This document shows positions 13,384-37,497 of a DNA stretch of 38,097 nucleotides, piece by piece (within the stretch, counting starts at the first letter, position 1; each line of letters opens with the position of its first letter). Both the position numbers and the translations under genes were made by a program. The notes under the pieces are model-generated. The model was not told the origin of the DNA and did not search any database. It saw only the letters and a list, made by a program, of their open reading frames with translations. The stretch comes from Rhodobacteraceae bacterium HLUCCA09 (GTDB lineage: Bacteria; Pseudomonadota; Alphaproteobacteria; Rhodobacterales; Rhodobacteraceae): the NCBI GenBank assembly GCA_001314685.1, contig LJNT01000083.1, forward strand, positions 1 to 38,097. Reading direction: 5' to 3'.

Positions 13384-13602
13384 ATGCCCACGTTCCTGCC
13401 CCCGCCACCCGGTTTCGATGCCGAAGGCTATGCCCGCGCCGCCGCGTCCGCCATCGGCCTGCCCCTGCCGGACGAGGCCGTGGCCGAGGTCGCCGCCAAT
13501 CTCGCGCGCACCGCCGGATTCGCGGCCCTCATGGCGGAGGCGCCGGAGATCGACGCGACCGAGCCCGCCCCCGTCTTTCGCGCCGGGGAGAGAGAGCGAT
13601 GA
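13384..13602 (+). CDS. DUF4089 / AtzG-like small amidase partner subunit
   Basis: 72 aa: FDAEGYARAAASAIGLPLPDEAVAEVAANLARTAGFAALMAEAPEIDATEPAPVFRAGE. Directly upstream of and overlapping an AtzE-like amidase. Confidence 0.8.
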   Translation: MPTFLPPPPGFDAEGYARAAASAIGLPLPDEAVAEVAANLARTAGFAALMAEAPEIDATEPAPVFRAGERER

Positions 13603-14969
13603 GCCTCGCAGCCACCGCTGAGGCCGTCTGCAGCGGCCGCACAAGCGCCTCGGAGACGGTCGCGCAGGCGCTCGCGGCCATCGAGGCGGCGGCCGGGCTG
13701 AACGCGGCGACACATGTCCATGCCGAGCGCGCCCGCGCCCGCGCCGCGGCGCTCGATGCGCGCATCTCCGAGGGGGGTGATCCGGGGCCGCTCGCCGGGG
13801 TGCCCTTCGCCGTGAAGAACCTGTTCGACGTCGAGGGCCAGATCACCCGCGCCGGCAGCCGTGCGACCGGTGCCGATCCGCCGGCCGCGCGCGACGCCTA
13901 CGCCATCCGCGCGCTGGAAGAGGCAGGCGCCGTGCTCGTGGCCAGCACGAACATGGACGAGCTGGCCTACGGCTTCTCGGGCGAAAACGCCCATGACGGT
14001 GACACGCGGAACCCGCGCGACCCGCGTCTGTCGGCTGGCGGCTCGTCCTCCGGCTCGGCGGCACTGGTGGCGGCGGGAGCGGTGCCGCTGGCGCTGGGCA
14101 CCGACACCAACGGCTCGGTTCGCGTGCCCGCGGCCCTTTCGGGCATCGCGGGGCTGAAGCCGACCTACGGGCGGCTGTCGCGTTCGGGCGTCTTTTCCTT
14201 CGTGCACAGCCTCGACCATGTCGGGGTGTTCGCGGCCACGGCGGACGACCTCGCCGCGGCGCTTGCCGCGCTCGACGGGCCAGACCCGGACGATCCGGCG
14301 CAGGCGTCCGGCGTTTCGCCGCGCCCGGTGCCGCAGGAGCTGCGCGCCGCGCGTCTCGGCGGCTGGTTCGCCGCGCCCCTCCACCCCGACGTGGCCGAGG
14401 CGGTCGACGCGGCTGCCGGCGCGCTGGGCGCCCCGACGACGGTCGAGTTGACCCTTGCAGAAGCGGCGCGCGCCGCCGCCTTCGTCCTCACCACGGCTGA
14501 GGGCGGGCAGCGGCACCTCGCGGGGCTCGCACGGCACGCCGAGAGGTTCGGCCCGCTCGTGCGCGACCGGCTGCGCGCGGGCGCGCTCGTTCCCGCCGCG
14601 TGGACGGGACGGGCGCAGAAGCTGCGCCGCCGGGTGACGGACGAACTGTCGGACCTGCACCGCGAGGCCGACGTTCTGTTCGCCCCGGCCACGCCGTGCC
14701 CTGCCTTCCCGCTCGGGACGGCCGAGCACGGGGTCGCGGGCGAGGTGCTGCCCATCCGCCTCGGCATCGGCATGTTCACCCAGCCGCTCACACTGACGGG
14801 CGTGCCGATCGGCGTCGCCGTCAGACGGGGCGCGCGTTCGGGCCTGCCCGTGGGCGTCCAGGTGATCGGGCGGCCCTTCGAGGAGGCCACGGTGCTCGCC
14901 GCAATGGCCCGGCTGGAGAAAGCGGGCTTCGTCATGCACCCCGCGCAGACGGAGGCCGCCCATGCCTGA
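13599..14969 (+). CDS. atzE: AtzE-family amidase (amidase signature family)
   Basis: GVPFAVKNLFDVEG...GSRATGADPPAARDAYAIRALEEAGAVLVASTNMDELAYGFSGENAHDGDTRNPRDPRLSAGGSSSGSAALVAAGAVPLALGTDTNGSVRVPAALSGIAGLKPTYGRLSRSG. Confidence 0.88.
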   Translation: MSLAATAEAVCSGRTSASETVAQALAAIEAAAGLNAATHVHAERARARAAALDARISEGGDPGPLAGVPFAVKNLFDVEGQITRAGSRATGADPPAARDAYAIRALEEAGAVLVASTNMDELAYGFSGENAHDGDTRNPRDPRLSAGGSSSGSAALVAAGAVPLALGTDTNGSVRVPAALSGIAGLKPTYGRLSRSGVFSFVHSLDHVGVFAATADDLAAALAALDGPDPDDPAQASGVSPRPVPQELRAARLGGWFAAPLHPDVAEAVDAAAGALGAPTTVELTLAEAARAAAFVLTTAEGGQRHLAGLARHAERFGPLVRDRLRAGALVPAAWTGRAQKLRRRVTDELSDLHREADVLFAPATPCPAFPLGTAEHGVAGEVLPIRLGIGMFTQPLTLTGVPIGVAVRRGARSGLPVGVQVIGRPFEEATVLAAMARLEKAGFVMHPAQTEAAHA

Positions 14970-15357
14970 GCGCCACGAGATCAACCTGCCCGACGTCGTG
15001 GCCGAGGTGCGCGCCGTGTTCGACCGCTATGAAAAGGCCCTGACGGATAACGACGTGCCGGTGCTGGAGGAGCTCTTCTGGAACAGCCCGCACACCACCC
15101 GCTACGGCGTGGGCGAGAATCTCTACGGCTGGGAGGCGATCTCGGCCTTCCGCCGCGCCCGCGCGACGGGCCCGTTCCGGCGGGCGCTGTCGAACACCAC
15201 GATCACCACCTACGGCCGCGACTACGCGACCGCCAACACCGAGTACCGGCGCGAGGGGCACGACCGCCCCGGCCGCGAGACCAAGACGCTCCTGCGCACG
15301 CCGCAGGGCTGGCGCATCGTCTCGGCGCACGTCAGCCTGCTGGGAGAGACGGTGTGA
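14962..15357 (+). CDS. hpxZ: HpxZ/AtzH-like protein (DUF3225, NTF2-like fold)
   Basis: INLPDVVAEVRAVFDRYEKALTDNDVPVLEELFWNSPHTTRYGVGENLYGWEAISAFRRAR...TTYGRDYATANTEYRREG...WRIVSAHVSLLG. Confidence 0.82.
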   Translation: MPERHEINLPDVVAEVRAVFDRYEKALTDNDVPVLEELFWNSPHTTRYGVGENLYGWEAISAFRRARATGPFRRALSNTTITTYGRDYATANTEYRREGHDRPGRETKTLLRTPQGWRIVSAHVSLLGETV

Positions 15358-15419
15358 GCGGCACGGACAGGGGCCTGGAAAGGCCCGCAACGAGAACGGC
15401 CCGGCAAAGGGCCGCGGAG

Positions 15420-17063
15420 ATGCAGAACGCCACCGCAGCAACAGGGATGACGACCATGACCACGCGAGACTTCAATCCCCCCACCGCGATCACCCGCCGC
15501 CGCTTCGGCCAGCTACTGGGGCTGTCCGGCGCCGCCCTCGCCCTGCCGTGGCGCGTCGAGGCGCAGGACGGCGTCGAGACCCTCGTCTTCGCGCTGCCGG
15601 GCCTCGTCGGCAATTTCGAGCCGCATACCTGGGTCGGTTTCGGCGACACGGTGCACGTGATGGATACCGCCGCCCGCGGCCTGACCCACATGAACTTCAC
15701 CGATCCCCTGCCGCAGCCCGCCATCGCCGAGAGCTGGACGATCTCGGACGACGGGCGCACCTACGATTTCCGCATCCGTGAGGGCCTGACCTTCCACGAC
15801 GGCACGGCGCTCGACGCGGCGGCGGTGCTGCGCACCTTCCGGCGCATGATCGACGAGGACGACCCCACGCGCCCCGAGCTTTCCTTCGCGCTCGACAACC
15901 TCGGCGGCGACAACGTGACGGGCTTCGAGGCGCCCGACGCGATGACCTTCCGCATCAACCTCGCCAAGCCCGACGCGGCGATCCTCGGCCGCCTATCGCG
16001 GCCCGACATGGTGATCGTCTCGCCCGCCGCGCTGGAGGAATACGGCCAGGAGATCGGGCTCAACTTCGTCTCCTGCGGGCCCTACCGCATCGTCGACGTC
16101 ACGCCCAACGAGCGCGTCGTGCTCGAGGCGTTCGACAACTTCTACAAGGGCCGGCCCGAGGTCGGGCGGATCGTGATGCAGGTCATCCCCGAGGCGGTGG
16201 CGCAGATGACCTCGCTCGCCTCGGGCGACCTGACCGTCACCAACCTCATCCCGCATTCCAACATCGACCGGCTGGAGGGGATGGACCAGATCCGCATCGA
16301 GCAGTCGGCCGCCTTCATCTCGGCCATGCTGGCGATGAATTGCGAGGCGGGCGTGCTGTCGGACATCCGCGTGCGTCAGGCGATCAACAAGGCGATCGAC
16401 CGAGAGGCTGTGGTGGCCGAGGCGTTCTTCGGCAAGGCGGAACTTCCGGGCTACATCACGCCCGCCGCCGAGCAGGGCTACGCGCCCGAGCACCGGCGCC
16501 TTTCCGAATACGACCCCGAGGGCGCCCGCGCCCTGCTGGAAGAGGCGGGCGCGACGGGAGCCGAGCTGTCGCTCATCTCCGAGAACAGCGGATTCTGGCC
16601 GCGCCTCGGTCAGGTCGTCGAGCGCAGCCTCAACGATGTGGGGCTGAACGTGACGACCGAGTATCTTGACGGCGGCACCTTCAACGGCCGGCTCTTCGAC
16701 AAGGAGGCGCACGAACTCGCCTTCCTGCAGCGGTCGGCCTTCTTCCCCGATCCCGACGGGCGGTTCTCGCCGCTCTTCGCCTCCGGTACGGCCGGGGCCG
16801 ACGAGATCACCGCACAGAGCGGCCTGCCCGCGCAGGCCCGCCTCGACGAGATGATCGCGGCTGCCAACGCCGAGAGCGACCCGGAGGCGCGCGGCCAGCT
16901 TTACGTGGAGATCAACACCTACATGGCCGAAGAGATCATGCCGGTCGCGGCTGTGGTGAACACCTTCCTCCCCGTGGCGGTGAGCGAGACGCTGGCGGGC
17001 GTCAACGCCAACGCGCTCGGCACATACCGGACCTTCCTCGAAGACACCACTTTCACCAGCTGA
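15420..17063 (+). CDS. ABC transporter substrate-binding protein, peptide/nickel (SBP_bac_5) type, Tat-like signal
   Basis: AITRRRFGQLLGLSGAALALPWRVEAQ twin-arginine signal; GLTFHDGTALDAAAVLRTFRRM, CGPYRIVDVTPNERVVLEAFDNFYKGRP, DIRVRQAINKAIDREAVV. Start uncertain (15354, 15420, 15447 or 15456). Confidence 0.88.
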   Translation: MQNATAATGMTTMTTRDFNPPTAITRRRFGQLLGLSGAALALPWRVEAQDGVETLVFALPGLVGNFEPHTWVGFGDTVHVMDTAARGLTHMNFTDPLPQPAIAESWTISDDGRTYDFRIREGLTFHDGTALDAAAVLRTFRRMIDEDDPTRPELSFALDNLGGDNVTGFEAPDAMTFRINLAKPDAAILGRLSRPDMVIVSPAALEEYGQEIGLNFVSCGPYRIVDVTPNERVVLEAFDNFYKGRPEVGRIVMQVIPEAVAQMTSLASGDLTVTNLIPHSNIDRLEGMDQIRIEQSAAFISAMLAMNCEAGVLSDIRVRQAINKAIDREAVVAEAFFGKAELPGYITPAAEQGYAPEHRRLSEYDPEGARALLEEAGATGAELSLISENSGFWPRLGQVVERSLNDVGLNVTTEYLDGGTFNGRLFDKEAHELAFLQRSAFFPDPDGRFSPLFASGTAGADEITAQSGLPAQARLDEMIAAANAESDPEARGQLYVEINTYMAEEIMPVAAVVNTFLPVAVSETLAGVNANALGTYRTFLEDTTFTS

Positions 17064-17071
17064 CCCAGCTT

Positions 17072-17098
17072 CCGGCCGGGCGCCGCGCGCCCGGCCGG
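17072..17098. repeat. Strong 12-bp intercistronic hairpin between SBP and permease
   Basis: CCGGCCGGGCGC-CGC-GCGCCCGGCCGG, perfect stem right after the SBP stop codon. Confidence 0.7.
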
Positions 17099-17115
17099 GC
17101 TTCGCCGGAGGCGCA

Positions 17116-17982
17116 ATGGCCGACAGCGCAGGACAGAAGATCGCGGCCGGCGGGGTGGCAAGTCTCCGCCTGTCGGCGGGCGTGGCCCTGGCGGCGCTGC
17201 CCTGGCTCGTGGCAGCGATCTTCGTGCTCGCCGCGCTTCTCGCGCCGTGGCTGGCCCCCCACGACCCCGTCGCCGGCCGCGCGGCGCCGATGCAGCAGAT
17301 GTTCTCCGACGGTCACCTGCTGGGCACGGACGCGCTGGGCCGCGACACGCTCTCGCGGCTGCTGTTCGGGCTGCGGCCGATGCTGGTGGTCTCGCTCGGT
17401 GCGGTGGCGCTCGCGCTCGCGGCGGGCGGCGCCTACGGCCTCGTCTCGGGAACTGCCGGCGGGCGGACGGACTGGGCGATGATGCGCGCCGTCGACATCC
17501 TGATGTCGTTTCCGCTGATCCTCGCGGCGATCCTCGTGCTCGCCGCGCTGGGGCCGTCGCTCTTCAACGTGACGCTCGCGGTGGCCGTCTCGCAGCTTCC
17601 CATCTTCGCCCGCCTCGCCCGGGCGCTCGCCGCCGGCGAGGCCGCGCGCGACTACGTGCTCGCCGCCCGCGCCGCGGGCTTCTCCGAGCTGCATGTGATG
17701 CTGCGCGAGGTGGCGCCCAACATCGCCCGGCCGCTTCTGGTGCAGGCGACCTCGGTGGTCGCGCTCGCCGCGCTGACCGCCGCCGCGCTCTCCTATCTCG
17801 GCCTCGGCGTGCGCCCGCCCGCGCCCGATCTCGGCTACATGGTGAAGGAGGGGCAGGAGCTGCTGTTCATCGCCCCCGAGCAGGCGCTGCTGCCGGGCCT
17901 GCTGATCGCCGTCTTCGCGCTGGCGGTCTCGTTCTGCGGCGACCAGCTGGCCGATGTCGAGCGGCGGGGAGGCGGCGCATGA
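17116..17982 (+). CDS. Peptide-type ABC transporter permease (DppC-like)
   Basis: APWLAPHDPVAG...HLLGTDALGRDTLSRLLFGLRPMLVV...DYVLAARAAGFSELHVMLREVAPNIARPLLV...LSYLGLGVRPPAPDLGYMVKEGQ. Confidence 0.9.
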   Translation: MADSAGQKIAAGGVASLRLSAGVALAALPWLVAAIFVLAALLAPWLAPHDPVAGRAAPMQQMFSDGHLLGTDALGRDTLSRLLFGLRPMLVVSLGAVALALAAGGAYGLVSGTAGGRTDWAMMRAVDILMSFPLILAAILVLAALGPSLFNVTLAVAVSQLPIFARLARALAAGEAARDYVLAARAAGFSELHVMLREVAPNIARPLLVQATSVVALAALTAAALSYLGLGVRPPAPDLGYMVKEGQELLFIAPEQALLPGLLIAVFALAVSFCGDQLADVERRGGGA

Positions 17983-18992
17983 TTGCCGAGATCGCCCGCC
18001 GCCTCGCCTTCCTGCCGGTCACGCTGTTCGTGGTGGCCACGCTCGTCTTCCTCGCGCTGCGCGCGCTGCCCGGCTCGACGGTCGACATGCTCGCCTCGTC
18101 CTTCTCGACGGCCGGGCTGCGCGACCAGCTGATCGCCCAGCTCGGCCTCGACCAGCCGCTGTGGAAGCAATACCTCATCTACGTCGGCGACCTCGTCCGC
18201 GGCGACCTCGGCCGCTCGTTCATCACGGGCCGGGACGTGGCGACCATGGTTGGCGAGACGCTGCCGGTGACGATCGAGCTCGCCGTCGCCTCGCTCGTGG
18301 TGATGATGGTCGTCGGCCTCGGCATGGGGCTTGCCGCCGCCGCGCGGCCCGGCTCGCTGCTCGACGGGGCGCTGCGCTTCGTCGCCATGACGCTCTTCGC
18401 GCTGCCGTGGTTCTGGTTCGGCATCCTGATGATCGTGGTCTTCTCGCTCTGGCTGGGCTGGCTGCCGGCCTTTGGGCGGCTGCCCTCGTCGGTCACCTAC
18501 GAGCCGGTGACGAACTTCGTGCTCATCGACGCGATCCTGACCGGCCGGCCCGAACTGATCGGGCCGTGGCTGGCGCACCTGACGCTGCCGGCGCTGACCG
18601 TCGGGCTGACCACCGCGGGCATGCTGATGCGGCTGGCCCGCGCCGGAGTGATCGAGACGGCCCGGCTCGACTTCGTGCGCTCGGCGCGGATGAAGGGCGT
18701 GCCGCCGGGGCGCGTGTTCTTCCGCCACGTGCTGCGCAACGCGGCGCTCGGCATCCTCACCGTGATCGGCCTGCAATTCGGCGCGATGCTCGGCGGATCG
18801 GTCGTGGCCGAGGTCGTCTTCGGCTATCCCGGTATCGGGCGCATGATGGTCGACGCCGTGCTGACCCGCGACTACGCCGTGGCGCAGGGCGCCGCGCTGG
18901 TGCTGGCCGTGCTCTACGTGCTGGTCAACCTCGTGACCGACCTCGCCTATCGCTGGGCCGATCCGCGCCTGCGGCGGGAGCCGGGCCGATGA
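17979..18992 (+). CDS. Peptide-type ABC transporter permease (DppB-like)
   Basis: RRLAFLPVTLFVVATLVFLALRALPGSTVDML...YVGDLVRGDLGRSFITGRDVATMVGETLPVTIELA...FVRSARMKGVPPGRVFFRHVLRNAALGILTVIGLQFG...VVFGYPGIGRMMVDAV. Confidence 0.92.
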   Translation: MIAEIARRLAFLPVTLFVVATLVFLALRALPGSTVDMLASSFSTAGLRDQLIAQLGLDQPLWKQYLIYVGDLVRGDLGRSFITGRDVATMVGETLPVTIELAVASLVVMMVVGLGMGLAAAARPGSLLDGALRFVAMTLFALPWFWFGILMIVVFSLWLGWLPAFGRLPSSVTYEPVTNFVLIDAILTGRPELIGPWLAHLTLPALTVGLTTAGMLMRLARAGVIETARLDFVRSARMKGVPPGRVFFRHVLRNAALGILTVIGLQFGAMLGGSVVAEVVFGYPGIGRMMVDAVLTRDYAVAQGAALVLAVLYVLVNLVTDLAYRWADPRLRREPGR

Positions 18993-19975
18993 CCGGGGCG
19001 CTGCTCGAGGTCGAGGGCCTGTCGGTCGCCTTCGGCCCTCCGGGCGCCCGGCTGTCGGCTGTCGAGGGCGTGTCGTTCGCGGTCGCGCCCGGCGAGATCG
19101 TGGCGCTGGTGGGCGAGTCCGGCTCGGGCAAGTCGGCCACGGCGATGGCGCTGGCGCGGCTGAACGAGGGGCCGGGCACGAAGCTCTCGGGACGGGTCGC
19201 GCTTTCGGGGCGTGACGTGCTGGCGATGGGGGGCGCGGCCCTGCGCGACCTGCGGGGCCGGGGCATCGCCATGGTCTTCCAGGACGCGGCCGCATCGCTC
19301 AACCCCTGCGAGACGGTGGGCGACCAGATCGCGGAATCGATCGTCGTGCACGGGCGGGGCGGCTGGCGCGCGGCGCGGGCACGCGCGGTGGAGCTTCTGG
19401 CCGAGGTCGGCCTGCCGGAGCCTGCGCGCCGGGCGGGCCTCTACCCGCACGAACTGTCCGGCGGGCAGCGACAGCGGGCGATGATCGCGCTGGCGCTCGC
19501 CTGCGACCCGGCGCTCCTGATCGCCGATGAACCGACCACCGCGCTCGACGTGACGATCCAGGCGCAGATCCTCGCCCTGCTCAGGCGCCTTGTCGCCGCC
19601 CGCGACATGGGGCTGCTGCTCATCACCCACGATCTCGGCGTGGTCGCGGGCATGGCCGACCGGGTGCTGGTGATCTATTCCGGCCGGATCGTCGAGTCGG
19701 CCTCGGTCGAGGCGCTCTTCGCCGCCCCCCGCCACCCCTACACGCGCGATCTGATCGACACCGCCGCGGCGGAGCCGGACGCGACCGGGCGCCTTGCCGC
19801 CATTCCCGGCGCGCCGCCCCGGCTGGGCGCCCGGCCCGCGGGCTGCGCCTACGCGCCCCGCTGCCGCCGCGCGACCGAAGGCTGCCGCAAAGAGCAGCCG
19901 CCGCTCGCGCCCCTCGGCGCCGGTCTCGCCGCCTGCTTCCATCCCGTGCCCGGTCCGGGGGAGGGCGGGCGGTGA
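18989..19975 (+). CDS. Peptide-type ABC transporter ATP-binding protein (DppD-like)
   Basis: Walker [13 protein letters not shown]; signature [16 protein letters not shown]; Walker [16 protein letters not shown]-terminal [14 protein letters not shown]. Confidence 0.93.
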
Positions 19976-20985
19976 GCGCGCCGCTGCTTACGCTCGACGG
20001 CCTGTCGGTGCGCTACCGCGTCCGCCACGGGTTCGGCCACCGGGAGATCGCCGCGCTCAGGCCCACGAGCCTCGATGTCCGGCGCGGCGAGACCCTGGCC
20101 GTGGTGGGCGAGAGCGGATCGGGCAAGACGACGCTTGGCCGGGCAATGCTGCGCCTGGTAGAGCCCACGGAAGGGCGTATCCTGCACGAGGGCACCGATC
20201 TGACGACGCTCTCTGTCCGCAGGATGCGGCGGCTGCGCCCGCGCTTCCAGATGGTCTTCCAGGACCCCTACGGGTCGCTCAACCCGCGCCACCGCGTCGG
20301 CACGATCCTGGCCGACGTGCTGGGCCATGTCGGCGTGCCGCGGGTCGAGCGCGGGGAGCGCGCCGCCGCCCTGCTCGCCGATGTGGGCCTCGACCGGGAT
20401 ACTCTCGATCGCTTCCCCTCCGCCTTTTCCGGTGGCCAGCGCCAGCGCATCGCCATCGCGCGTGCGCTCGCCGCCGGGCCAGAGCTGGTGGTGGCCGACG
20501 AGCCGATCTCGGCGCTCGACGTCTCGATCCAGGCGCAGATCGTCAACCTGCTGGTCGAGCTGAAGCGCGAGCGGGGCCTCACGCTCGTCTTCATCTCGCA
20601 CGACCTCGACATGGTCGCCGCCATCGCCGACCGCATCGCCGTGATGTATTTCGGCGAGGTGGTCGAGCTCGGCGACGCCGCCACTCTCGCGGCTGCGCCC
20701 GCCCACCCCTACACGGCGATGCTGCTCGCCAGCCAGCCGAGGCCCGACGTCGCCGCCGCCCGTGCCACGATCGCCGCCGCCGCGGAGGCGCCGGCGGCCG
20801 ACCTGCCGAGCCAGCTCGACCCGCCCCTGGGCTGCCCCTTCCGCAGCCGCTGCCCCCGCGCGCTCGAGCGCTGCGCCGCGGAGCCCCCAGTGCTGACATC
20901 GACCGGCCGCGGCGGGCTGGCCGCCTGCCACAATCCGGTCCCCGCCGCCGAAAACCACCCGAAGAGAGGAGCTGTCCGCGCATGA
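19972..20985 (+). CDS. Peptide-type ABC transporter ATP-binding protein (DppF-like)
   Basis: GESGSGKTTLGRAML, VFQDPYGSLNPRHRVG, FSGGQRQRIAIARALAAGPELVVADEPISALDVSIQAQ, CPFRSRCPRALERC. Confidence 0.93.
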   Translation: MSAPLLTLDGLSVRYRVRHGFGHREIAALRPTSLDVRRGETLAVVGESGSGKTTLGRAMLRLVEPTEGRILHEGTDLTTLSVRRMRRLRPRFQMVFQDPYGSLNPRHRVGTILADVLGHVGVPRVERGERAAALLADVGLDRDTLDRFPSAFSGGQRQRIAIARALAAGPELVVADEPISALDVSIQAQIVNLLVELKRERGLTLVFISHDLDMVAAIADRIAVMYFGEVVELGDAATLAAAPAHPYTAMLLASQPRPDVAAARATIAAAAEAPAADLPSQLDPPLGCPFRSRCPRALERCAAEPPVLTSTGRGGLAACHNPVPAAENHPKRGAVRA

Positions 20986-26430: not shown

Positions 26431-27789
26431 ATGCAGATCCAGGCAGGTCAGGTTCTTCGTCAGCAGCACGTCGTTGCGATGACGCAGGAGTTGCGTCGCG
26501 CGATCGATCTGTTGAGCTTCAACAACGCCGGTCTGCGGGCCTACCTCGAGCGTGAGGCCCGGACGAATCCGCTGATCGAATTGCGCCCGTTGGCCGACCG
26601 TCCGGCCGCCACGGACGACAGCCCCAGACCCGCGCCGGACCCGGCAGGCGGAGGCAAGGCTTCCGGGCCCGGTGCGGCCCCGGTGGGGGCCGAGGCGCTG
26701 CCTGCTGCGCCCCTGGGCCTTGTGGACCACGTGATGAGCCAGATCCGGATCGAGGCGCGCGACGCGAGACAGGTTTCGATCGCTCATGCCTTCCTCGATG
26801 CGCTTGAGCCCTACGGCTGGCTGCAGCGCGACGTCGCCGACATCGCCGCGGCCGCGGATTGCACGTGCGAGGAGGCAGAAGCCGTGCTCGCCCTGCTGCA
26901 GGCCTGCGATCCGCCGGGGATCTTCGCGCGGTCGCTCAGGGAGTGTCTGCGCCTGCAGGCCCTCGACCGAGAGGCGCTCGACCCCCTGATGGAGAGCGTC
27001 CTGGACAGGCTGGACCTCGTGGCCGAAGGAGACATCGCGGCGCTGGCCATGGCCTGCGACGCCACGGCGGGGGCGGTCGCGGCGCGCGTCGCGGTGCTGC
27101 GCGGCTTCGACCCGAAGCCGGGTCTTGCCTTCGAGGCCCCGCCCCACCCCGTCCGCGCACCCGACCTCATCGCAACGGAGGATGGGAATGGCTGGGCGCT
27201 CGAACTTAACGACGCAACGCTTCCGGCGATCACCGTGCGCAAGGACCGCGTCTCCGACAAGAGTGCGCGCGAAGGCTTCGCGGCCGAGGCGCTTGCGCGG
27301 GCGCGGGGGCTGAAGCGGGCGATCGAGTACCGCAATGCCAACACGGTCGCCGTGGGCGCCGAGATCCTCAAGCGCCAGTCGGAGTATTGCGCAGACCGCG
27401 CGACCCACCTCGAGGCGCTGTCGTTGCAGGAGGTCGCCGATGCGACGGGCCTGCACGAGAGCACGGTCAGCCGCCTCGTCGCCGGGCTGCTGATTCAGAC
27501 GCCGCGGGGTGTGCTGGTCTTGCGCGATCTGTTCTGTCGCGCGCTCGGGGCGCAGAGTGGCAAGCCGGGGGTCTCGGTCGCGCAGGTCCGGGCGAGGATC
27601 GTGGCGCTGATCGGCGAGGAGAGGCCAGACGCGCCGTTGACGGACGCGATGATCGTCGAGGCGCTCGATCGCGAGGGCGTGCGCATCGGTCGCCGGACGG
27701 TCGCCAAGTATCGCGCGATGGCGGGCCTGCACGGGGCAGCGGAACGGCGTCGGAGGGCCCGTGCATTCCCGAAGCGGCCGCGTGCGTGA
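26431..27789 (+). CDS. rpoN: RNA polymerase sigma-54 factor (RpoN paralog)
   Basis: 452 aa: region I-like MQIQAGQVLRQQHVVAMTQELRRAIDLLSFNNAGLRAYLEREARTNPLIEL; core-binding domain; HTH LSLQEVADATGLHESTVSRLVAGLLIQTPRGVLVLRDLF; RpoN box GRRTVAKYRAM. Confidence 0.92.
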   Translation: MQIQAGQVLRQQHVVAMTQELRRAIDLLSFNNAGLRAYLEREARTNPLIELRPLADRPAATDDSPRPAPDPAGGGKASGPGAAPVGAEALPAAPLGLVDHVMSQIRIEARDARQVSIAHAFLDALEPYGWLQRDVADIAAAADCTCEEAEAVLALLQACDPPGIFARSLRECLRLQALDREALDPLMESVLDRLDLVAEGDIAALAMACDATAGAVAARVAVLRGFDPKPGLAFEAPPHPVRAPDLIATEDGNGWALELNDATLPAITVRKDRVSDKSAREGFAAEALARARGLKRAIEYRNANTVAVGAEILKRQSEYCADRATHLEALSLQEVADATGLHESTVSRLVAGLLIQTPRGVLVLRDLFCRALGAQSGKPGVSVAQVRARIVALIGEERPDAPLTDAMIVEALDREGVRIGRRTVAKYRAMAGLHGAAERRRRARAFPKRPRA

Positions 27790-27819
27790 GATGCGCGCGT
27801 CTCCGCGCGGATTTCGCGC
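27784..27819 (+). promoter_or_regulatory. Putative EBP upstream activator sites (pair A)
   Basis: A1 GCGTGAGATGCGCGCGTC (27784-27801) contains GAGATGCGCGCGTCTC (7 of 8 symmetric pairs). A weaker copy, GCGCGGATTTCGCGC (27805-27819), lies 21 bp downstream. Confidence 0.5.
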
Positions 27820-27890: not shown

Positions 27891-27906
27891 TGGCACGATA
27901 CTTGCA
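27891..27906 (+). promoter_or_regulatory. Sigma-54 promoter P1 (-24/-12)
   Basis: TGGCACGATACTTGCA matches TGGCACG-N4-TTGCW; GG and GC separated by 10 nt. Upstream of the SBP at 27997. Confidence 0.9.
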
Positions 27907-27996: not shown

Positions 27997-29535
27997 ATGA
28001 CACGCTTTCCACGCCTTCTGGCCGCGTCGCTCCTGGCGCTCGGCACGGCGGCACCGGTCGCCTCGGCGCAGGACCTCGTGGTCGGCTTCACGCGGGATGC
28101 CGACACGCTCGATCCCGCCAACCACCGCAACCGCGAGACCCAGACCATCATCCGCAACATGTACGACGGTATCCTGACGCGGGATTCGTCGATGGAGATC
28201 CACCCGGAACTCGCCGAGTCCTACACCCAGGTCTCGCCCACCGAGTACGACTTCGTGATCCGCGACGGGGTGCGCTTTCACGACGGCTCCGCGATGACCC
28301 TCGAGGACGTCAAGTTCACCCTCGAGCGGCTGTTCACCGAGGGCGGCATGGGCGACGGCCAGACCAGCCCTCGGCAGAGCCTGCTCGGCCCGCTCGAGAG
28401 CGTCGAGATCACCGGCGAGGACACCGTGCGCCTGACGCTGGCAGAGCCCTGGCCGCTGCTGCCCGCCATGCTGCCCTTCCAGGAAGTCGTCTCGAAGGAC
28501 CATGTCGAGGCGGTCGGCAACGATGGAATGGCGACCGAGGCCAACGGCACCGGCCCGTTCAGGCTCGTCGACTGGCGCAAGGGCGACTCGATCATCATGG
28601 AGCGGTTCGACGACTATTATGGCGGCGCCGAGGGCATCGAGCCCGTCGGGCCGGCCTGCGTCGAGCGCGCGATCTTCCGCATCATCCCCGAATCCGCGTC
28701 GCGGGTGGCGGCGCTTCTTGCGGGCGACGTGCACATCATCAACGAGCTGCCCGCCTTCGCCGTGCCGCAGGTCGAGGCCTCCGACGTGGCCGACGTGATG
28801 ACCGTAAACGGCACCCGCAGCTTCTTCATCGCCATGAACAACCAGGGCGAGATCTTCGACGACGTGAGGGTGCGGCAGGCCGTTGCCCATGCCATCGAAA
28901 AGGATCTGATCATCGACGCGATCCTCGGCGGTAACGCGGCGCGGATCGAGGGCATCCTCAGCCCCGACGCCTTCGGCAAGAACGAGGATCTGCCCGCCTA
29001 CGACCACGACCCCGAAAAGGCGCGCGCGCTGCTGGCCGAGGCAGGCTACCCCGACGGGATCGAGGTGACGATGGACGTCGAGGGCGCCTTCAAGGATACC
29101 GCGGAGGCCATCGCCTCGATGCTGACCGAAGCCGGCATCACAACGACCGTCGCGGTGGGCGAGGGGGCCCTGCTCACCGAGAAGTGGCGCACCATGGGAG
29201 AGCCCAAGGAGGGCGACATGTACTTCTCTTCCTGGGGCAACGGCTCGCTCGACCCCGAGGACATCTTCGTGCCGACGCACATGACCGACGCGCGTGGCAA
29301 CTCGGCCGGCTACTCCAACTCCGAGATCGACCGGCTGCTCGACGAGGCCGCGACTGAGGTCGATCGCGAGGTGCGGGCGAGCATGTACCAGGAGGCCGAG
29401 GCGATCGTGAACGCCGAGGTGCCCTACGTCTATCTCTGGGTGCCGCAGGACATCTACGGCGTCTCCAGGCGTGTCAGCGGCTGGAGCCCCAGCCCGGACG
29501 GCCGGATCAACCTGCACGACGCCTGCCTGAACTGA
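27997..29535 (+). CDS. ABC transporter substrate-binding protein (SBP_bac_5 type, Sec signal)
   Basis: MTRFPRLLAASLLALGTAAPVASAQ signal peptide; VVGFTRDADTLDPANHRNRETQTIIRNMYDGIL, GVRFHDGSAMTLEDVKFTLERL, TGPFRLVDW, DDVRVRQAVAHAIEKDLII. Confidence 0.92.
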   Translation: MTRFPRLLAASLLALGTAAPVASAQDLVVGFTRDADTLDPANHRNRETQTIIRNMYDGILTRDSSMEIHPELAESYTQVSPTEYDFVIRDGVRFHDGSAMTLEDVKFTLERLFTEGGMGDGQTSPRQSLLGPLESVEITGEDTVRLTLAEPWPLLPAMLPFQEVVSKDHVEAVGNDGMATEANGTGPFRLVDWRKGDSIIMERFDDYYGGAEGIEPVGPACVERAIFRIIPESASRVAALLAGDVHIINELPAFAVPQVEASDVADVMTVNGTRSFFIAMNNQGEIFDDVRVRQAVAHAIEKDLIIDAILGGNAARIEGILSPDAFGKNEDLPAYDHDPEKARALLAEAGYPDGIEVTMDVEGAFKDTAEAIASMLTEAGITTTVAVGEGALLTEKWRTMGEPKEGDMYFSSWGNGSLDPEDIFVPTHMTDARGNSAGYSNSEIDRLLDEAATEVDREVRASMYQEAEAIVNAEVPYVYLWVPQDIYGVSRRVSGWSPSPDGRINLHDACLN

Positions 29536-29612: not shown

Positions 29613-30620
29613 ATGTCCCTCGCCCGCCTCGTCGAACGGCTTCTGCAACTGATCCCGGTGCTCCTCGGCGTGAGCGTGATCGTTTTCGTGATGATCACGC
29701 TGACGCCGGGCGATCCCGTCGACATCATGATCGGCGACGAGATCGTGACCGAGGAACAGGAAGAGGCGATGCGCCGCGACCTCGGCCTCGACCGCCCCGT
29801 GCACGAGCGGTTCCTCGTCTTTCTCGGCAACGCGGTGCAGGGCGATTTCGGAGAGAGCTTCTACCACGGTCGCCCCGTGGCCGACGTGATCGCCGAACGT
29901 CTGCCCGCCACCATCGAACTGACGCTGGTGGCCATGATCATCGCCCTCGTCACCGCCATCCCGCTGGGCGTGCTGGCCGCGATCAAGCGGAACTCCATCC
30001 TCGACCGGATCGCCACGGTGGGATCGCTCCTGGGGGTGTCGCTACCCGGCTTCTGGTTCGGCATCCTGCTGATCATGCTCTTCGCCGTGCAGCTCGACCT
30101 GCTGCCGGTCTCGGGTCGGATCGGCTACGCCTTCGAGATCGAGCCGATCACGCATTTCATGCTGATCGACACGCTGCTGCGCGGCCGGCCCGACGCATTC
30201 CTCGACGCGCTGTCGCACATCATCCTGCCGGCGATCACGCTCGGGCTGCCAATGACGGCGATCCTGATGCGCGTCACCCGCGCCTCGATGCTCGAAGTGC
30301 TCCGGCAGGACTACGTGACCTTTGCCGAGGCCAAGGGTCTTGCCCGCCACCGCATCCTCTTTCGCCATGCGCTGAAGAACGCGCTGATCCCCACCGTCTC
30401 GGTCGCCGCGATCGAGACGGGCTCGCTCCTCGGCGGCAACATGATCGTCGAGACGGTCTTCGGCTGGCCCGGTCTGGGGCGGCTGGTGGTCGAGAGCATC
30501 TTCGTGCGCAACTACCCACTCGTGCAGGCGGCGGTGCTGCTCTACGCCGTGACCTACGTGATGCTCAATTTCTTCGCCGACATCCTCTACACCGTCCTCA
30601 ACCCGCGGGTGAAGCTGTGA
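29613..30620 (+). CDS. Peptide-type ABC transporter permease (DppB-like)
   Basis: RLLQLIPVLLGVSVIVFVMITLTPGDPVDIMIGDEI...LGLDRPVHERFLVFLGNAVQGDFGESFYHGRPVADVIAERLPATIELTL...VVETVFGWPGLGRLVVESI. Confidence 0.93.
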   Translation: MSLARLVERLLQLIPVLLGVSVIVFVMITLTPGDPVDIMIGDEIVTEEQEEAMRRDLGLDRPVHERFLVFLGNAVQGDFGESFYHGRPVADVIAERLPATIELTLVAMIIALVTAIPLGVLAAIKRNSILDRIATVGSLLGVSLPGFWFGILLIMLFAVQLDLLPVSGRIGYAFEIEPITHFMLIDTLLRGRPDAFLDALSHIILPAITLGLPMTAILMRVTRASMLEVLRQDYVTFAEAKGLARHRILFRHALKNALIPTVSVAAIETGSLLGGNMIVETVFGWPGLGRLVVESIFVRNYPLVQAAVLLYAVTYVMLNFFADILYTVLNPRVKL

Positions 30621-31521
30621 GCGCGACGGAGGAGATCATAGCCGCCGGCCCGGCCGAGCCCGCGCGGGAGACGCCTTTCCGCCGCAACATGCGCGCCTTT
30701 GCAGCGAACCCTCTGGCGCTGGGATCGGCCGTCGTCGTGGGTCTGTTCATCCTCATGGCGATCTTCGCGCCGCTCGTCGCGCCCCACGACCCCGCCGACA
30801 CCGATCTCCTCCGCCGCCTCCAGCCGCCGGCGTGGCTGCCGGGGGGCGACTGGGCGCACCCGCTGGGCTGCGACGCGCTGGGACGCGACATCCTCAGCCG
30901 GATCATCTACGGCGCGCGGGTGTCGATCTTCATCGGCGCGGCGGTGGTTCTGGTGGCCACGACCATCGGCATCCTCGCCGGGCTCGCCGCGGGCTACCTG
31001 CGCGGCTGGGTCGACGTGGCGATCTCGCGGTTCGTCGACATCCTGCTCGGCTTTCCCTATCTGATCTTCGCCATCGGGCTGATGGCGATGATGGGGCCTG
31101 GTCTCGGCAACATCATTCTTGCGCTGGTCTACAAGGAGTGGGTGATCCCGTGCCGCGTGGTGCGGGGCGAGACGCTGGCCGCGCGCGAGCTGGAATATGT
31201 CGAGGCCGCGCGCGCCATCGGCGCCTCGCGCGGCTACATCATGCTGCGCGAGATCCTCCCCAACATCCTCTCGCCCGTGATCGTCGTCTCCACCATCCGC
31301 ATGGCGCATGTGATCATCCTCGAGGCGTCGCTCAGCTTCCTCGGGCTCGGCGTGCAGCCGCCCACCGCCTCGTGGGGGGCGATGGTGGCCGACGGGCGGG
31401 CCTTCATCCTGCAGGCGTGGTGGGTCTCCACCTTCCCCGGCGTGGCGATCCTGCTGCTGGTGCTGGCGATCAACGTGGCCAGCCAGGGCCTGCGCGACGC
31501 CTTCGACCCGAGGTTTCACGA

Positions 31522-31525
<4 letters not shown>
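30617..31525 (+). CDS. Peptide-type ABC transporter permease (DppC-like)
   Basis: APLVAPHDPADTDL...AHPLGCDALGRDILSRIIYGARVSIFIGAAVV...EYVEAARAIGASRGYIMLREILPNILSPVIVVSTIRMAHVIILEASLSFLGLGVQPPTASWGAM. GTG start overlapping the previous stop. Confidence 0.93.
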
Positions 31526-32516
<991 letters not shown>

Positions 32517-32520
<4 letters not shown>

Positions 32521-33539
32521 CCGGAAGCGCGCCCCTCCTCGAGGTGGACAAGCTCGTGAAGGAATACCGCGGCGGCCGCCGTCTGGCCGACCGGCTGACG
32601 GGCCGGCCCGAGACGGTGGTGCGCGCCGTCACCGGCGTCAGCCTGTCGATCGCCCGGGGCGAGATCGTCGGGCTGATCGGCGAGTCGGGCTGCGGCAAGT
32701 CCACCCTCGGCCGCTCGATCCTGCGGCTGCACGAGCCCACCTCGGGGCGCGTGACGTTTGACGGCACCGACGTCACGGCGCTGGCGGCGCCTGCGATGAA
32801 GGCGATGCGACGGCGGATGCAGATCATCTTCCAGGATCCCTACGCCTCGCTCAACCCGCGCCGCACGGTGGGCGAGATCGTGGGGCTGCCGCTGCGCCTG
32901 CACGGTCTGGCCAGGAGCCCCGCGGAGGTGCGCGACCTCGTGGCGGCGATGATCGAGAAGGTGGGCCTGAAGTCCGCCCATCTGGATCGCTATCCGCACC
33001 AGTTCTCGGGCGGGCAGCGCCAGCGCATCGGGATCGCCCGGGCGCTGGTCAGCCACCCCGAGTTCATCGTCTGCGACGAGCCCGTGTCGGCGCTCGACGT
33101 CTCGATCCAGGCGCAGATCATACAGCTGCTGACCGACCTGAAGAGCGAGATGGGGCTGACCTACCTGTTCATCTCGCACGACATCTCGGTGATCGGCTAT
33201 CTCAGCGACCGGGTCGCGGTGATGTATCTGGGCGAGTTGGTGGAGTTCGGCCCCGTCGAGGACGTGCTCGCGCGCCCTCGCCACCCATACACGCAGAGCC
33301 TGATGTCGGCGGTGCCGGAGGTCGACCGGCCCGGCCACCGCCACCGCGTGCGGCTGGAGGGCGACCTGCCCTCGCCGCTCGCGCCGCCCCCCGGCTGCCG
33401 CTTTCACACGCGCTGCCCCTTCGCCACCGACATCTGCCGCCGCGAGGCGCCTCGAACCGAAACGGTGGGGCCGGGCCACACGGCCGCCTGCCACCGGTTG
33501 TCGGAGAACCTGTCGCTTCTGGACGAGGAGCAGGCATGA
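32517..33539 (+). CDS. Peptide-type ABC transporter ATP-binding protein (DppF-like)
   Basis: GESGCGKSTLGRSILRL, IIFQDPYASLNPRRTVG, FSGGQRQRIGIARALVSHPEFIVCDEPVSALDVSIQAQ, GCRFHTRCPFATDIC. Confidence 0.93.
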
Positions 33540-34627
33540 GAGCCGACGCGACTCCCCCCGCCGAGCCGGTCTTGCTGGTGGGCGACGCCGGGGCGCGCGG
33601 ACGGGCGCAGGCCGCGTCCGGCGCCGCGCCCGGTGAGGTGCGGGCAACGATGGCGGCGCGCCTGACGGAGGCGCGGGACGCGGGCCTGATGACGGAGGGC
33701 GCGCTGGCCTATCTCGCGCGTCAGCGCGCCTTCAGCGAGGCGCACTGCCCCGAGGCGATGGCCGAGATGGCCGGGATCGCCGAGGCCTTCGACCTGCCCG
33801 AGCAGGACGTCTTCCTGCACCAGCATCTCGGCACGCTGAAGGACCTCGCGGGCGGCGCGGCGCTGTCGGAGGACGGGTGCAGCGCCTGGGCGGTGGCAGA
33901 CGGGCCGGACGGGCCGCTGGTGGTGAAGAACCGCGATTTCTCGGGCCACCATGCCGCGATCCAGCGCGTATTCCGCCACGAGGGCCCCGATCTGGCGCAG
34001 GGCCCGGTGCTGTGTCTCGGCAGCCTCGGCAGCCCGGGCGCCTATTCCTCGGGGATGAACGCGGCGGGCCTCGCCGTGGTCGATACGCAGGTGGGCGTGC
34101 GCATCCATGCCGTGGGCTGGTTGCGCTACTTCCTGATGACGCGGATCCTGTCGCGCTGCGCGCGGGTGGACGAGGCGCTCGCCCTGATCCGCGCTCTGCC
34201 CCATGCCGGTGGCGGCACGCTGGTCATGGCCGACGCCCTCGGCGGCGCCGCGGTCGTCGAGTTGGCCGCCGGGGCCGTCGCCACCGAGGAGGGGCCACTC
34301 GTCTGCCGCACCAACCACTTCACCTCGACCGCCCTCGCCCACGAGACGCTGACCGACAGCACAAGCCGCATCGACGACAGCTCGGCGAAGCGGCGGGCCC
34401 ATCTCGACGCCGAACTGCCCGGGCGGCCCTGGAACGTGGGCGCCGCCGCGGCGCTCATGGCGCAGCACGTCGAGGACTGCGGAGCGTCGGTCTGCCAGCA
34501 TGCAGGTGCCGCGACAGGTGCGCGCACGATCGCCTGCACCGTCTATTGCCCGCGCTCCGGGCTCGTCTATGCTTGCCTCGATGCGCCGTGCACCGGGCCG
34601 TGGCACCATCTCTCCGTCACCGCCTGA
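33536..34627 (+). CDS. C45-family autoproteolytic Ntn acyltransferase/hydrolase (acyl-CoA:6-APA acyltransferase-like)
   Basis: LSEDGCSAWAVADGPDGPLVVKNRDFSGHH: candidate Gly/Cys self-cleavage site (Cys115, codon 33878-33880); NAAGLAVVDTQVG; CRTNHFTS; TIACTVYCPRSGLVYAC. Confidence 0.83.
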   Translation: MRADATPPAEPVLLVGDAGARGRAQAASGAAPGEVRATMAARLTEARDAGLMTEGALAYLARQRAFSEAHCPEAMAEMAGIAEAFDLPEQDVFLHQHLGTLKDLAGGAALSEDGCSAWAVADGPDGPLVVKNRDFSGHHAAIQRVFRHEGPDLAQGPVLCLGSLGSPGAYSSGMNAAGLAVVDTQVGVRIHAVGWLRYFLMTRILSRCARVDEALALIRALPHAGGGTLVMADALGGAAVVELAAGAVATEEGPLVCRTNHFTSTALAHETLTDSTSRIDDSSAKRRAHLDAELPGRPWNVGAAAALMAQHVEDCGASVCQHAGAATGARTIACTVYCPRSGLVYACLDAPCTGPWHHLSVTA

Positions 34628-34655: not shown

Positions 34656-35645
34656 ATGGCAGACCAGACAGACGACCTGATCGGCAACCACGAGAGCATC
34701 CGCGAGTTGCGTCGACTGGTGGAGCGCGTGGCGAAGAGCCCTGCCCGAACCGTGCTGATCTACGGCGAGACCGGCACGGGCAAGGGCCTCGCCGCGCTCA
34801 TGATTCACCGGCTGTCCACCCGTCACCGCAAGGAATTCGTCGACATCAACTGCGCCGCGATCCCGGCGACCCTGATGGAATCCGAGCTGTTCGGGCACGA
34901 GAAGGGCGCCTTTACGGGCGCAGTGGAACGTCGGATCGGGCTGGTGGAATCGGCCAATGGAGGGAGCATCTTTCTCGACGAGATCCGCGAGCTCGACCTG
35001 ACCCTGCAGGCCAAGCTGCTCAGCCTGCTCGACCAGCACCAGTTCCGCCGGGTGGGCGCGACGCGCACCACCTCCGTCGACGTCCGCTTCATCGCGGCGA
35101 CGAACAAGGTGCTGCTGTCGGAGGTGCGCGAAGGCAAGTTCCGCGAGGATCTCTACTACCGCCTGCAGGTGGTGGCGTTGAACATCCCGCCCCTGCGGGA
35201 GCGGGGAGATGACATCCTCGTTCTCGCTCGGCACTTCATCGACCGCTTCAACGTCCAGTACGACCGCCGCGTCCGCGGACTGAGCGACGAGGCGCGCGAG
35301 ATCCTGCTGCGCTATCCCTGGCCCGGAAACGTACGCGAGCTCGAAAACCTGCTCGAGCGCATCTTCATCCTCGAGGACGACGACGAGGTGCTGCCCCGCC
35401 ACATGCCGGACCGGATCTTGCGGACCGTGCGCTCCGGCAGTCGGACGGTCCCGCCACCGCAGGACTACGACACCGAGTTCGCGCGGGGTGGCTTCCACGA
35501 GGCCACCGCCGTTTTCCAGCGGGGGATGATCGAACAGGCGATCGTGGCGACCGACGGCAATCTGCAGGACGCGGCCGCTCGGCTGGGGATCAGCCGACAC
35601 GCCCTGCGCCACCAGATGACCAAGCTCGCCATGCGCGACGCGTGA
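34656..35645 (+). CDS. Sigma-54-dependent activator (bacterial EBP): AAA+ domain plus Fis-type HTH, no N-terminal sensory domain
   Basis: MADQTDDLIGNHESIRELRRLVERVAKSPARTVLIYGETGTGKG (Walker A), ESELFGHEKGAFTGAVERR (GAFTGA loop), GGSIFLDEI, YPWPGNVRELENLLERIFIL, HTH GNLQDAAARLGISRHALRHQM. Confidence 0.92.
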   Translation: MADQTDDLIGNHESIRELRRLVERVAKSPARTVLIYGETGTGKGLAALMIHRLSTRHRKEFVDINCAAIPATLMESELFGHEKGAFTGAVERRIGLVESANGGSIFLDEIRELDLTLQAKLLSLLDQHQFRRVGATRTTSVDVRFIAATNKVLLSEVREGKFREDLYYRLQVVALNIPPLRERGDDILVLARHFIDRFNVQYDRRVRGLSDEAREILLRYPWPGNVRELENLLERIFILEDDDEVLPRHMPDRILRTVRSGSRTVPPPQDYDTEFARGGFHEATAVFQRGMIEQAIVATDGNLQDAAARLGISRHALRHQMTKLAMRDA

Positions 35646-35681
35646 GGTGCGCACGCCGCGCGCGTGAGAGGCGCGCATGAT
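35640..35681 (+). promoter_or_regulatory. Putative EBP upstream activator sites (pair B)
   Basis: GCGTGAGGTGCGCACGCC (35640-35657) and GCGTGAGAGGCGCGCATG (35662-35679): each 15/18 identical to A1, 22 bp apart. Confidence 0.5.
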
Positions 35682-35748: not shown

Positions 35749-35764
35749 TGGCACGTCGCTTGCA
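35749..35764 (+). promoter_or_regulatory. Sigma-54 promoter P2 (-24/-12)
   Basis: TGGCACGTCGCTTGCA, same TGGCACG-N4-TTGCA pattern as P1, 31 nt before the AtuA start codon. Confidence 0.9.
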
Positions 35765-35795
35765 TGTTCCGCTGGAAGAACCGCCGGAGAGGGCC

Positions 35796-37181
35796 ATGAC
35801 ATCACTGAAGATCATCTGCCCGAACGGGCATCTCGGCTTCGCGCCGCTCAAGCGCGCGAGCTTCCGCCTCGGCGTCGCGGAGAAACCCGACTACATAGCG
35901 GCGGATTCGGGCAGCGACGATATCGGTCCCGTCCCGCTGGGGACCGATACCTGTGCAAGTCCCAAGGCCTGGCAGCGGCACGACCTCGAGGAGATGCTGC
36001 TGGCGGCGCGCGAGCTCGACGTGCCGATGCTGATCGGCTCGGCAGGCGACACCGGCGCGGACACGCGCGTCGACATGTACGTGCAGATGATCCGCGAGAT
36101 TGCGGCCGAGCACGGCCTCGCCCCCTTCCGTATCGGCTGGTTCTACTCCGAACTCGACAAGGAGGTCGTGGCAGGACGCATCCGGTGGGGGCGCCCGGTG
36201 ACCGGCCTCGACGGCCGCGCCGATCTGACCGAGGCCGATCTGGAGGCGACGACGCGAATCGTCGCGATGGCCGGCGTTCACCCCTACCGGACGCTTCTCG
36301 AGCAGGGCTGCGACGTGATCATCGGCGGTCGCTCGTCGGACAGTGCGATCTTCGCCGCCCCTGCCTTGCACCACGGCTTTCCCGAGGCTCAGGCCTACTA
36401 CCTTGGAAAGGTACTGGAATGCGCGTCGTTCTGCGCCGAGCCCTACGGCGCGAAGGAAACGGTGCTGGGCGAGGTCACCGCCGACTGGGTGGAGGTCACC
36501 GCGATGGCGCCACATCAATCCTGCACCGTGGCCTCGGTCGCGGGCCACGCCATGTACGAGCGCGCAGACCCGTTCCACGAATACGTCGCGGGCGGGATGC
36601 TCGACATGACCGAGTGCCGCTACGAGCAGGTCAGCGCGCGCACGACGCGCGTGACAGGCATGCGCTTCGTTCCCGCCACCGACCTGCGGGTGAAACTCGA
36701 GGGCGCGGGCAAGGTGGGCGAGCGCTATGTCGGCATGGCTGGCATCCGCGACCCCTACACCATCGCCCATGTCGACGAAGCGATCGAATGGGCCCGTGAG
36801 CAGGTCCGCGAGCGCTTCGGCGACGAGGGTTGGGAGCTGCACTACAACGTCTTCGGTCGCGACGGGATCATGGGGGCCATGGAACCCATGCGTGACAGGC
36901 CCGGCCACGAGGTTCTGGTGGTGGTCCAGGGCCTCGCGCCGACCGCCGAGATGGCCGAGGAAGTGACGATGACCGGCACGCGCCAGCTCTTCTACGCACG
37001 CCTGCCCGACGTGAAGGGCACGGCCGGCGGCGTGTCCTTCGTCTTCGACGAGGTGCTGTCGGCGTCGCCCGGCCATCGCTGGACGGTCAATCACACGATG
37101 GCCGTGGACGACCCGATGGAACTGTTCCCCTGTCATGTCGACCGCGTCGGCGCTCCGACACTGGAGACCAAGAATGCCTGA
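35796..37181 (+). CDS. AtuA-family protein (DUF1446, acyclic terpene utilization-like)
   Basis: CPNGHLGFAPLKRASFRLGVAEKPDYIAADSGSDDIGPVPLGTDTCASPK...LIGSAGDTGADTRVDMYVQMIREIAAEHGL...QGCDVIIGGRSSDSAIFAAPALHHGF. Confidence 0.85.
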   Translation: MTSLKIICPNGHLGFAPLKRASFRLGVAEKPDYIAADSGSDDIGPVPLGTDTCASPKAWQRHDLEEMLLAARELDVPMLIGSAGDTGADTRVDMYVQMIREIAAEHGLAPFRIGWFYSELDKEVVAGRIRWGRPVTGLDGRADLTEADLEATTRIVAMAGVHPYRTLLEQGCDVIIGGRSSDSAIFAAPALHHGFPEAQAYYLGKVLECASFCAEPYGAKETVLGEVTADWVEVTAMAPHQSCTVASVAGHAMYERADPFHEYVAGGMLDMTECRYEQVSARTTRVTGMRFVPATDLRVKLEGAGKVGERYVGMAGIRDPYTIAHVDEAIEWAREQVRERFGDEGWELHYNVFGRDGIMGAMEPMRDRPGHEVLVVVQGLAPTAEMAEEVTMTGTRQLFYARLPDVKGTAGGVSFVFDEVLSASPGHRWTVNHTMAVDDPMELFPCHVDRVGAPTLETKNA

Positions 37182-37497
37182 GACAACGCTGTCCGACCTC
37201 GCGAAGACGATCCGCAGCAAGAATGCAGGCACCGACAAGGTCACCTTCGACGTGATCTTCCGCAAGGGCGCCGATTACGAGCGGGTGAAACGCTCCGGCG
37301 TGCTCAGCCGTGGCGCCGTGGCCCGCATCCTGAACATCACCGAAGGGCGTGTGACAGAGTTCGTCGAGTACGATCCTGCCTACGCGATCAAGTTCACCAT
37401 CCTGCGCGACCGGCCCAGCGGCAGCCCCGGCGACGGCGACATCTTCGGCGCCCAGCAATACGCGCCGTTTCTCGGTCTGACCATTCCGGACGCGTGA
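37174..37497 (+). CDS. DUF4387-domain protein (AtuA partner)
   Basis: LAKTIRSKNAGTDKVTFDVIFRKGADYERVKRSGVLSRGAVARILNI...YDPAYAIKFTILRDRPSGSPGDGDIFGAQQYAPFLGL. Overlaps the AtuA stop by 8 nt. Confidence 0.85.
   Translation: MPETTLSDLAKTIRSKNAGTDKVTFDVIFRKGADYERVKRSGVLSRGAVARILNITEGRVTEFVEYDPAYAIKFTILRDRPSGSPGDGDIFGAQQYAPFLGLTIPDA

Follow-up and report, generated by a model that had tools for sequence, protein, structure and literature searches.

The pair of genes for an AtuA-family protein and a DUF4387 protein is preceded in this DNA by a sequence that resembles a sigma-54 promoter, which raises the question of whether sigma-54 controls the pair and, if so, with which sigma factor and which activator. 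Sigma-54 is usually a shared factor that serves many activators and operons. In the window (the whole analysed stretch of 38,097 nucleotides from Rhodobacteraceae bacterium HLUCCA09), our comparisons favour a different arrangement: it is quite likely that the site, P2, functions as the sigma-54 promoter of AtuA/DUF4387 within a self-contained cassette possessing its own sigma-54 activator (EBP) and its own RpoN. Sequence comparison is the basis for the promoter, the conservation of the cassette, the palindrome, the TGCAT association, the RpoN clade and the CmlAB homology described below.

The cassette and its distribution

The cassette contains ten genes on the forward strand, in the order rpoN, substrate-binding protein, two permeases, two ATPases, C45 hydrolase, EBP, AtuA and DUF4387. 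The product of rpoN (26431–27789) is a dedicated sigma-54 of 452 amino acids with the AID, core-binding and DNA-binding domains (Pfam PF00309, PF04963 and PF04552) and an RpoN box. It is followed by a peptide-type substrate-binding protein assigned by Pfam to SBP_bac_5 (27997–29535), ABC permeases 1 (29613–30620) and 2 (30617–31525), ABC ATPases 1 (31522–32520) and 2 (32517–33539), both of the oligopeptide type, and an autoproteolytic acyltransferase/hydrolase of the C45 family (33536–34627). The EBP (34656–35645) is composed of an AAA+ domain (PF00158, E-value 7.5e-66) with intact GAFTGA and a Fis-type HTH (HTH_8), and has no N-terminal sensor domain. The last two genes encode the AtuA-family protein (35796–37181) and the DUF4387 protein (37174–37497), homologues of the citramalate lyase subunits A (CmlA) and B (CmlB), respectively. 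The genes of rpoN and EBP, the candidate enhancers and both promoters are all located within one 11-kb cassette.

A query of the genome collection with AtuA returned 48 loci. The full cassette order was found in about 18 of them, one being clipped by a contig end, and all of these 18 or so are titled as Rhodobacteraceae/Paracoccaceae genera or unnamed Alphaproteobacteria. The same order without rpoN is present in loci of a Saccharospirillum MAG, Caenispirillum and Ciceribacter, and the segment EBP-AtuA-DUF4387 is kept in five betaproteobacterial loci as well as in Cupriavidus sp. KK10. The window also possesses a second peptide-type ABC transporter set (15354–20985) behind an amidase and an AtzG-like protein, and no exact sigma-54 consensus was found in this region (13599–20985).

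The P2 and P1 sites

P2 (TGGCACGTCGCTTGCA, 35749–35764, forward strand) is an exact match to TGGCAY-N5-NTGCW, with GG and GC 10 bp apart. The EBP stop (35645) and the AtuA start are 150 bp apart, and P2 lies in this gap, 31 bp from the ATG at 35796. Numbered from the C of the -12 element, transcription would start near 35775, about 20 bases 5' of this ATG. P1 (TGGCACGATACTTGCA, 27891–27906, forward strand), the conserved consensus match at the head of the transporter operon, lies 90 bp ahead of the ATG that starts the gene for the substrate-binding protein. The two sites share the -24 and -12 elements and the continuation TGCATGT, exactly as an earlier note on this DNA had described for P2 at these positions.

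On their own, the hexamers do not exceed chance across the genome. Allowing at most one mismatch, the pattern was found twice in the window against 0.47 expected, and at least two matches were obtained in 7 of 100 shuffles; the 4.13-Mb genome contains 3 exact matches, and the reversed pattern used as a control matches 4 times. Counting of the plain consensus over the genome, being at chance level, was dropped as evidence, and the case for P2 therefore rests on position and conservation. Two of the three exact matches lie about 8 kb apart and head two gene groups that flank one EBP. The third, on contig C57, is probably a chance match, with no Pfam match in the two flanking open frames tested. 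The extended pattern TGGCAYN6TGCATNT occurs in this genome at P1 and P2 only (control 0), and across 11 genomes 9 of its 10 matches fall at P1/P2 positions. The lone extended TGCAT-type match outside a cassette (G551:C50:56306-56324, locus L160) lies a few kb from an NtrC-like gene.

Conservation of P2 among AtuA loci

For 61 loci we scored the stretch of 120 bp preceding AtuA and accepted as a site any match of at least 9 bits. A sigma-54 site was found in 35 of the 38 loci in which an EBP gene immediately precedes AtuA, compared with 1 of the 23 in which none does (Fisher P 2e-12, which overstates the strength because many cassette loci are related and the counts are not independent). The distance from the site to AtuA is 31–39 bp in the Rhodobacteraceae cassettes and 40–56 bp in betaproteobacteria, and both the sequence and the position of P2 are conserved over loci whose AtuA falls to about 70% identity.

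Three EBP-bearing loci are exceptions. L051 has a site in the same position, but a weaker one; in L071 the AtuA match begins late, so its start is misplaced; and in G566 (L141, G566:C2) the EBP loop reads GSFAGA in place of GAFTGA and no sigma-54 site is left. No rpoN match was found in G566 either (the genome is listed as complete; the contig ends near the cassette, and rpoN is possibly unassembled), which gives the appearance of a concerted loss of rpoN, GAFTGA and site. The sole EBP-less locus with a site, Haematobacter L056, has a TGCAT-type sequence upstream of position 10001, before AtuA/DUF4387; neither a cassette EBP nor a cassette-type rpoN was found in the genome examined, and the site may be a relic.

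Two other loci show different arrangements. In L144, a related operon, AtuA/DUF4387 lie directly 3' of the transporter, with neither EBP nor sigma-54 site. L142 (G424:C17) is rearranged into EBP, a sigma-54 site with two palindromes, and then AtuA-DUF4387-transporter, followed by two matches of C45 type and another AtuA-DUF4387 pair. Only one good site was found in L142, at the head of the operon whose first gene is AtuA. Since L144 and L142 keep the transporter, C45 and lyase pair together, participation of these proteins in one pathway is supported.

A candidate enhancer common to P1 and P2

The palindrome GCGYG-N5-CRCGC is present upstream of P1 and P2 alike. The candidate EBP enhancers in the window are GCGTGAGATGCGCGC (27784–27798) and GCGCGGATTTCGCGC (27805–27819) before P1 and GCGTGAGAGGCGCGC (35662–35676) before P2. 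Within the window by itself the palindrome does not exceed chance (10 copies against an expected 7.4), and its support is therefore comparative: the exact palindrome occurs in 39 of 49 P1/P2 upstream regions, compared with 39 of 2983 windows taken as controls from other parts of these loci. A half-site spacing of 5 bp is the commonest (39 regions), followed by 7 bp (20), a count that overlapping G+C-rich palindromes would produce. The palindrome centres cluster at about 57, 70, 80 and 102 bp upstream of -24, in steps close to a DNA turn. A genome scan with the enhancer and a loose promoter pattern gave 8 matches against 6 for the control and was uninformative apart from P1/P2.

That the cassette EBP regulates P1 and P2 together is a prediction well supported by these comparisons, because the sites are conserved, the palindrome is shared at similar distances and the site is lost along with sigma-54 where the latter is absent. 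The earlier note had proposed that the pair is co-regulated, and the same three observations now give that proposal comparative support. Independent transcription of the pair from P2 is plausible. Neither a terminator nor a sigma-70 promoter was predicted in the 150-bp gap between EBP and AtuA; read-through from P1 may therefore contribute.

A separate clade of RpoN and the promoter sequence beside it

The cassette RpoNs form one clade apart from all other RpoN sampled, with support of 100/98 (89/89 in a first, earlier RpoN set). The RpoN box of the cassette RpoN in the window reads GRRTVAKYR, and that of other copies mostly ARRTVAKYR. Relative to the window copy, the cassette RpoNs are 38–52% identical while AtuA is 75–85% identical; the sigma factor therefore diverges quickly. 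The genome of the window carries a second, canonical rpoN on contig C55 in the order lptA-lptB-rpoN-hpf. A canonical copy is also present in the genus-mate G635, in which no AtuA match was found. In G535, G551, G396, G458, G497, G663 and the genomes of L044 and L039, no rpoN besides that of the cassette was found. Of the further activator-like proteins sampled from these sole-rpoN genomes, most are without GAFTGA, the clear exception being G458, where another GAFTGA activator is present. The earlier note had spoken of an rpoN paralog; a second, canonical copy does exist here, and the description can be refined to a sigma-54 of the cassette itself, in a separate clade and the only one found in many relatives.

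The -12 element reads TGCAT, with A at -11 and T at -10, in all 38 promoters beside a cassette rpoN and in 2 of the 14 elsewhere, a contrast confounded with taxonomy, as the rpoN-bearing set is essentially all Rhodobacteraceae. In L142, which belongs to the same family and has no adjacent rpoN, it reads TGCTT.

AtuA/DUF4387 as a probable lyase pair

In profile searches AtuA matched the CmlA chain of citramalate lyase (PDB 9erq/9evf) with an E-value of 1.8e-93, and DUF4387 matched the CmlB chain (9erq/9evf) with 3.1e-29; the genes are adjacent and both matches cover nearly the full length. The predicted structure of AtuA (pLDDT 85.5) superimposes on citramalate lyase with TM 0.87 and 32% identity, and that of DUF4387 (pLDDT 84) with TM about 0.85 and 39% identity. 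Because of these matches in sequence and predicted structure, the two proteins probably constitute a two-subunit lyase-type enzyme. We also considered an Atu terpene cluster and rejected it: AtuA is not in a cluster of the atuABCDEFGH type, its neighbours being the transporter, C45, EBP and DUF4387. The name "acyclic terpene utilisation" is probably misleading for this branch of AtuA.

Searches of the literature on DUF4387, on AtuA with sigma-54 and on citramalate lyase with AtuA gave nothing relevant. The earlier note knew of no description of sigma-54 control of this pair, and none appeared in the literature searched, which covered few subscription journals.

Alternative explanations

The possibility that P2 matches the consensus by chance and does not act as a promoter draws on the genome-wide count, in which the exact motif is no more frequent than its reversed control. 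It is strongly disfavoured by the conserved placement, the association with EBP, the co-loss with sigma-54 and the shared palindrome, and we consider it extremely improbable. Rather more room is left for the pair being expressed mainly through read-through from P1, with P2 dispensable or a mere booster. The genes are on the same strand, separated by a 150-bp gap without predicted terminator, and L144 shows the pair directly 3' of a transporter with no EBP or site of its own; against this stand the conservation of P2 where AtuA is as low as about 70% identical and the placing of the one good site of L142 before an AtuA-first operon, so that read-through as the main route seems improbable.

Somewhat less improbable, though still unlikely, is that P2 works with the canonical housekeeping RpoN of contig C55, instead of or beside the cassette RpoN. 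This genome does possess such a gene in its lptA-lptB-rpoN-hpf context, cassettes without their own rpoN must rely on the standard one, and A at -11 is allowed in standard -12 elements too. Yet it is only next to the cassette rpoN that TGCAT shows no variation, and many relatives yielded no rpoN besides that of the cassette.

Proposed circuit

The reading we prefer, of P2 as a promoter served by the cassette EBP and the cassette RpoN, can be put together as follows. The EBP would bind GCGYG-N5-CRCGC about 80–100 bp upstream of -24 at P1 and P2, and its ATP hydrolysis and GAFTGA loop would open polymerase carrying the cassette RpoN, which appears to prefer the extended -12 element TGCAT. P1 would yield the transporter, C45 hydrolase and EBP, and P2 the lyase pair. 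An amide- or peptide-type compound may then be taken up, its acid freed by the C45 hydrolase, and a carbon-carbon bond of this acid cleaved by the CmlAB-like enzyme. DNA binding by the EBP, its pairing with RpoN, the signal, the substrate and the order of the pathway are the parts of this circuit that we infer.

We give about even chances to the wider proposal that the cassette constitutes a sigma-54 regulon both transferable and orthogonal, with its own code (TGCAT at -12), two promoters only and the sole sigma-54 of several lineages, controlling a citramalate-lyase-type enzyme and a transporter. If this is true, the cassette would be a natural orthogonal expression system that supplies sigma-54, activator and enhancers for exactly two promoters, and a small closed case in which co-specialisation of sigma-54, promoter and activator can be tested directly. 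For AtuA/DUF4387, widely annotated after terpene use, the cassette also points to a likely class of enzyme and to a regulatory setting that has apparently arisen more than once.

Comparison with known systems

Sigma-54 activators of the PspF type are single-domain proteins, with AAA+ plus a Fis-type HTH and no N-terminal regulatory domain. The cassette EBP has the same composition, but among the neighbouring genes of the cassette there is no PspA-like partner to be seen. The lyase pair resembles citramalate lyase CmlA/CmlB (PDB 9erq, 9evf) in that both subunits are matched near full length, and differs in sequence, being about one third identical, with room for another substrate.

Specialised RpoN/EBP pairs are already known in Cereibacter (Rhodobacter) sphaeroides, namely RpoN1-NifA, RpoN2-FleQ and RpoN3-AprX, where the -11 position contributes to RpoN specificity (PMC11999139). 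The cassette would be similar in combining a specialised rpoN copy and a cognate EBP on their own promoters. Unlike in C. sphaeroides, a single stretch of 11 kb brings together sigma factor, EBP, candidate enhancers and both promoters. The cassette rpoN is in many cases the sole copy found in its genome, the EBP lacks a sensor domain, and a transporter and a lyase pair form the outputs.

A further arrangement is found in two loci of Bacillota, Sedimentibacter L070 and Tissierellia L074, in which a histidine kinase, an EBP, a near-consensus sigma-54 site, AtuA and DUF4387 follow each other in this order. Their EBP is of another type, a response regulator 40–42% identical to the cassette EBP, and unlike the cassette these loci have neither a cassette rpoN nor the GCGYG palindrome. 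Sigma-54 control in L070 and L074 is probably an independent recruitment, and their arrangement suggests that the pair has been brought under sigma-54 more than once.
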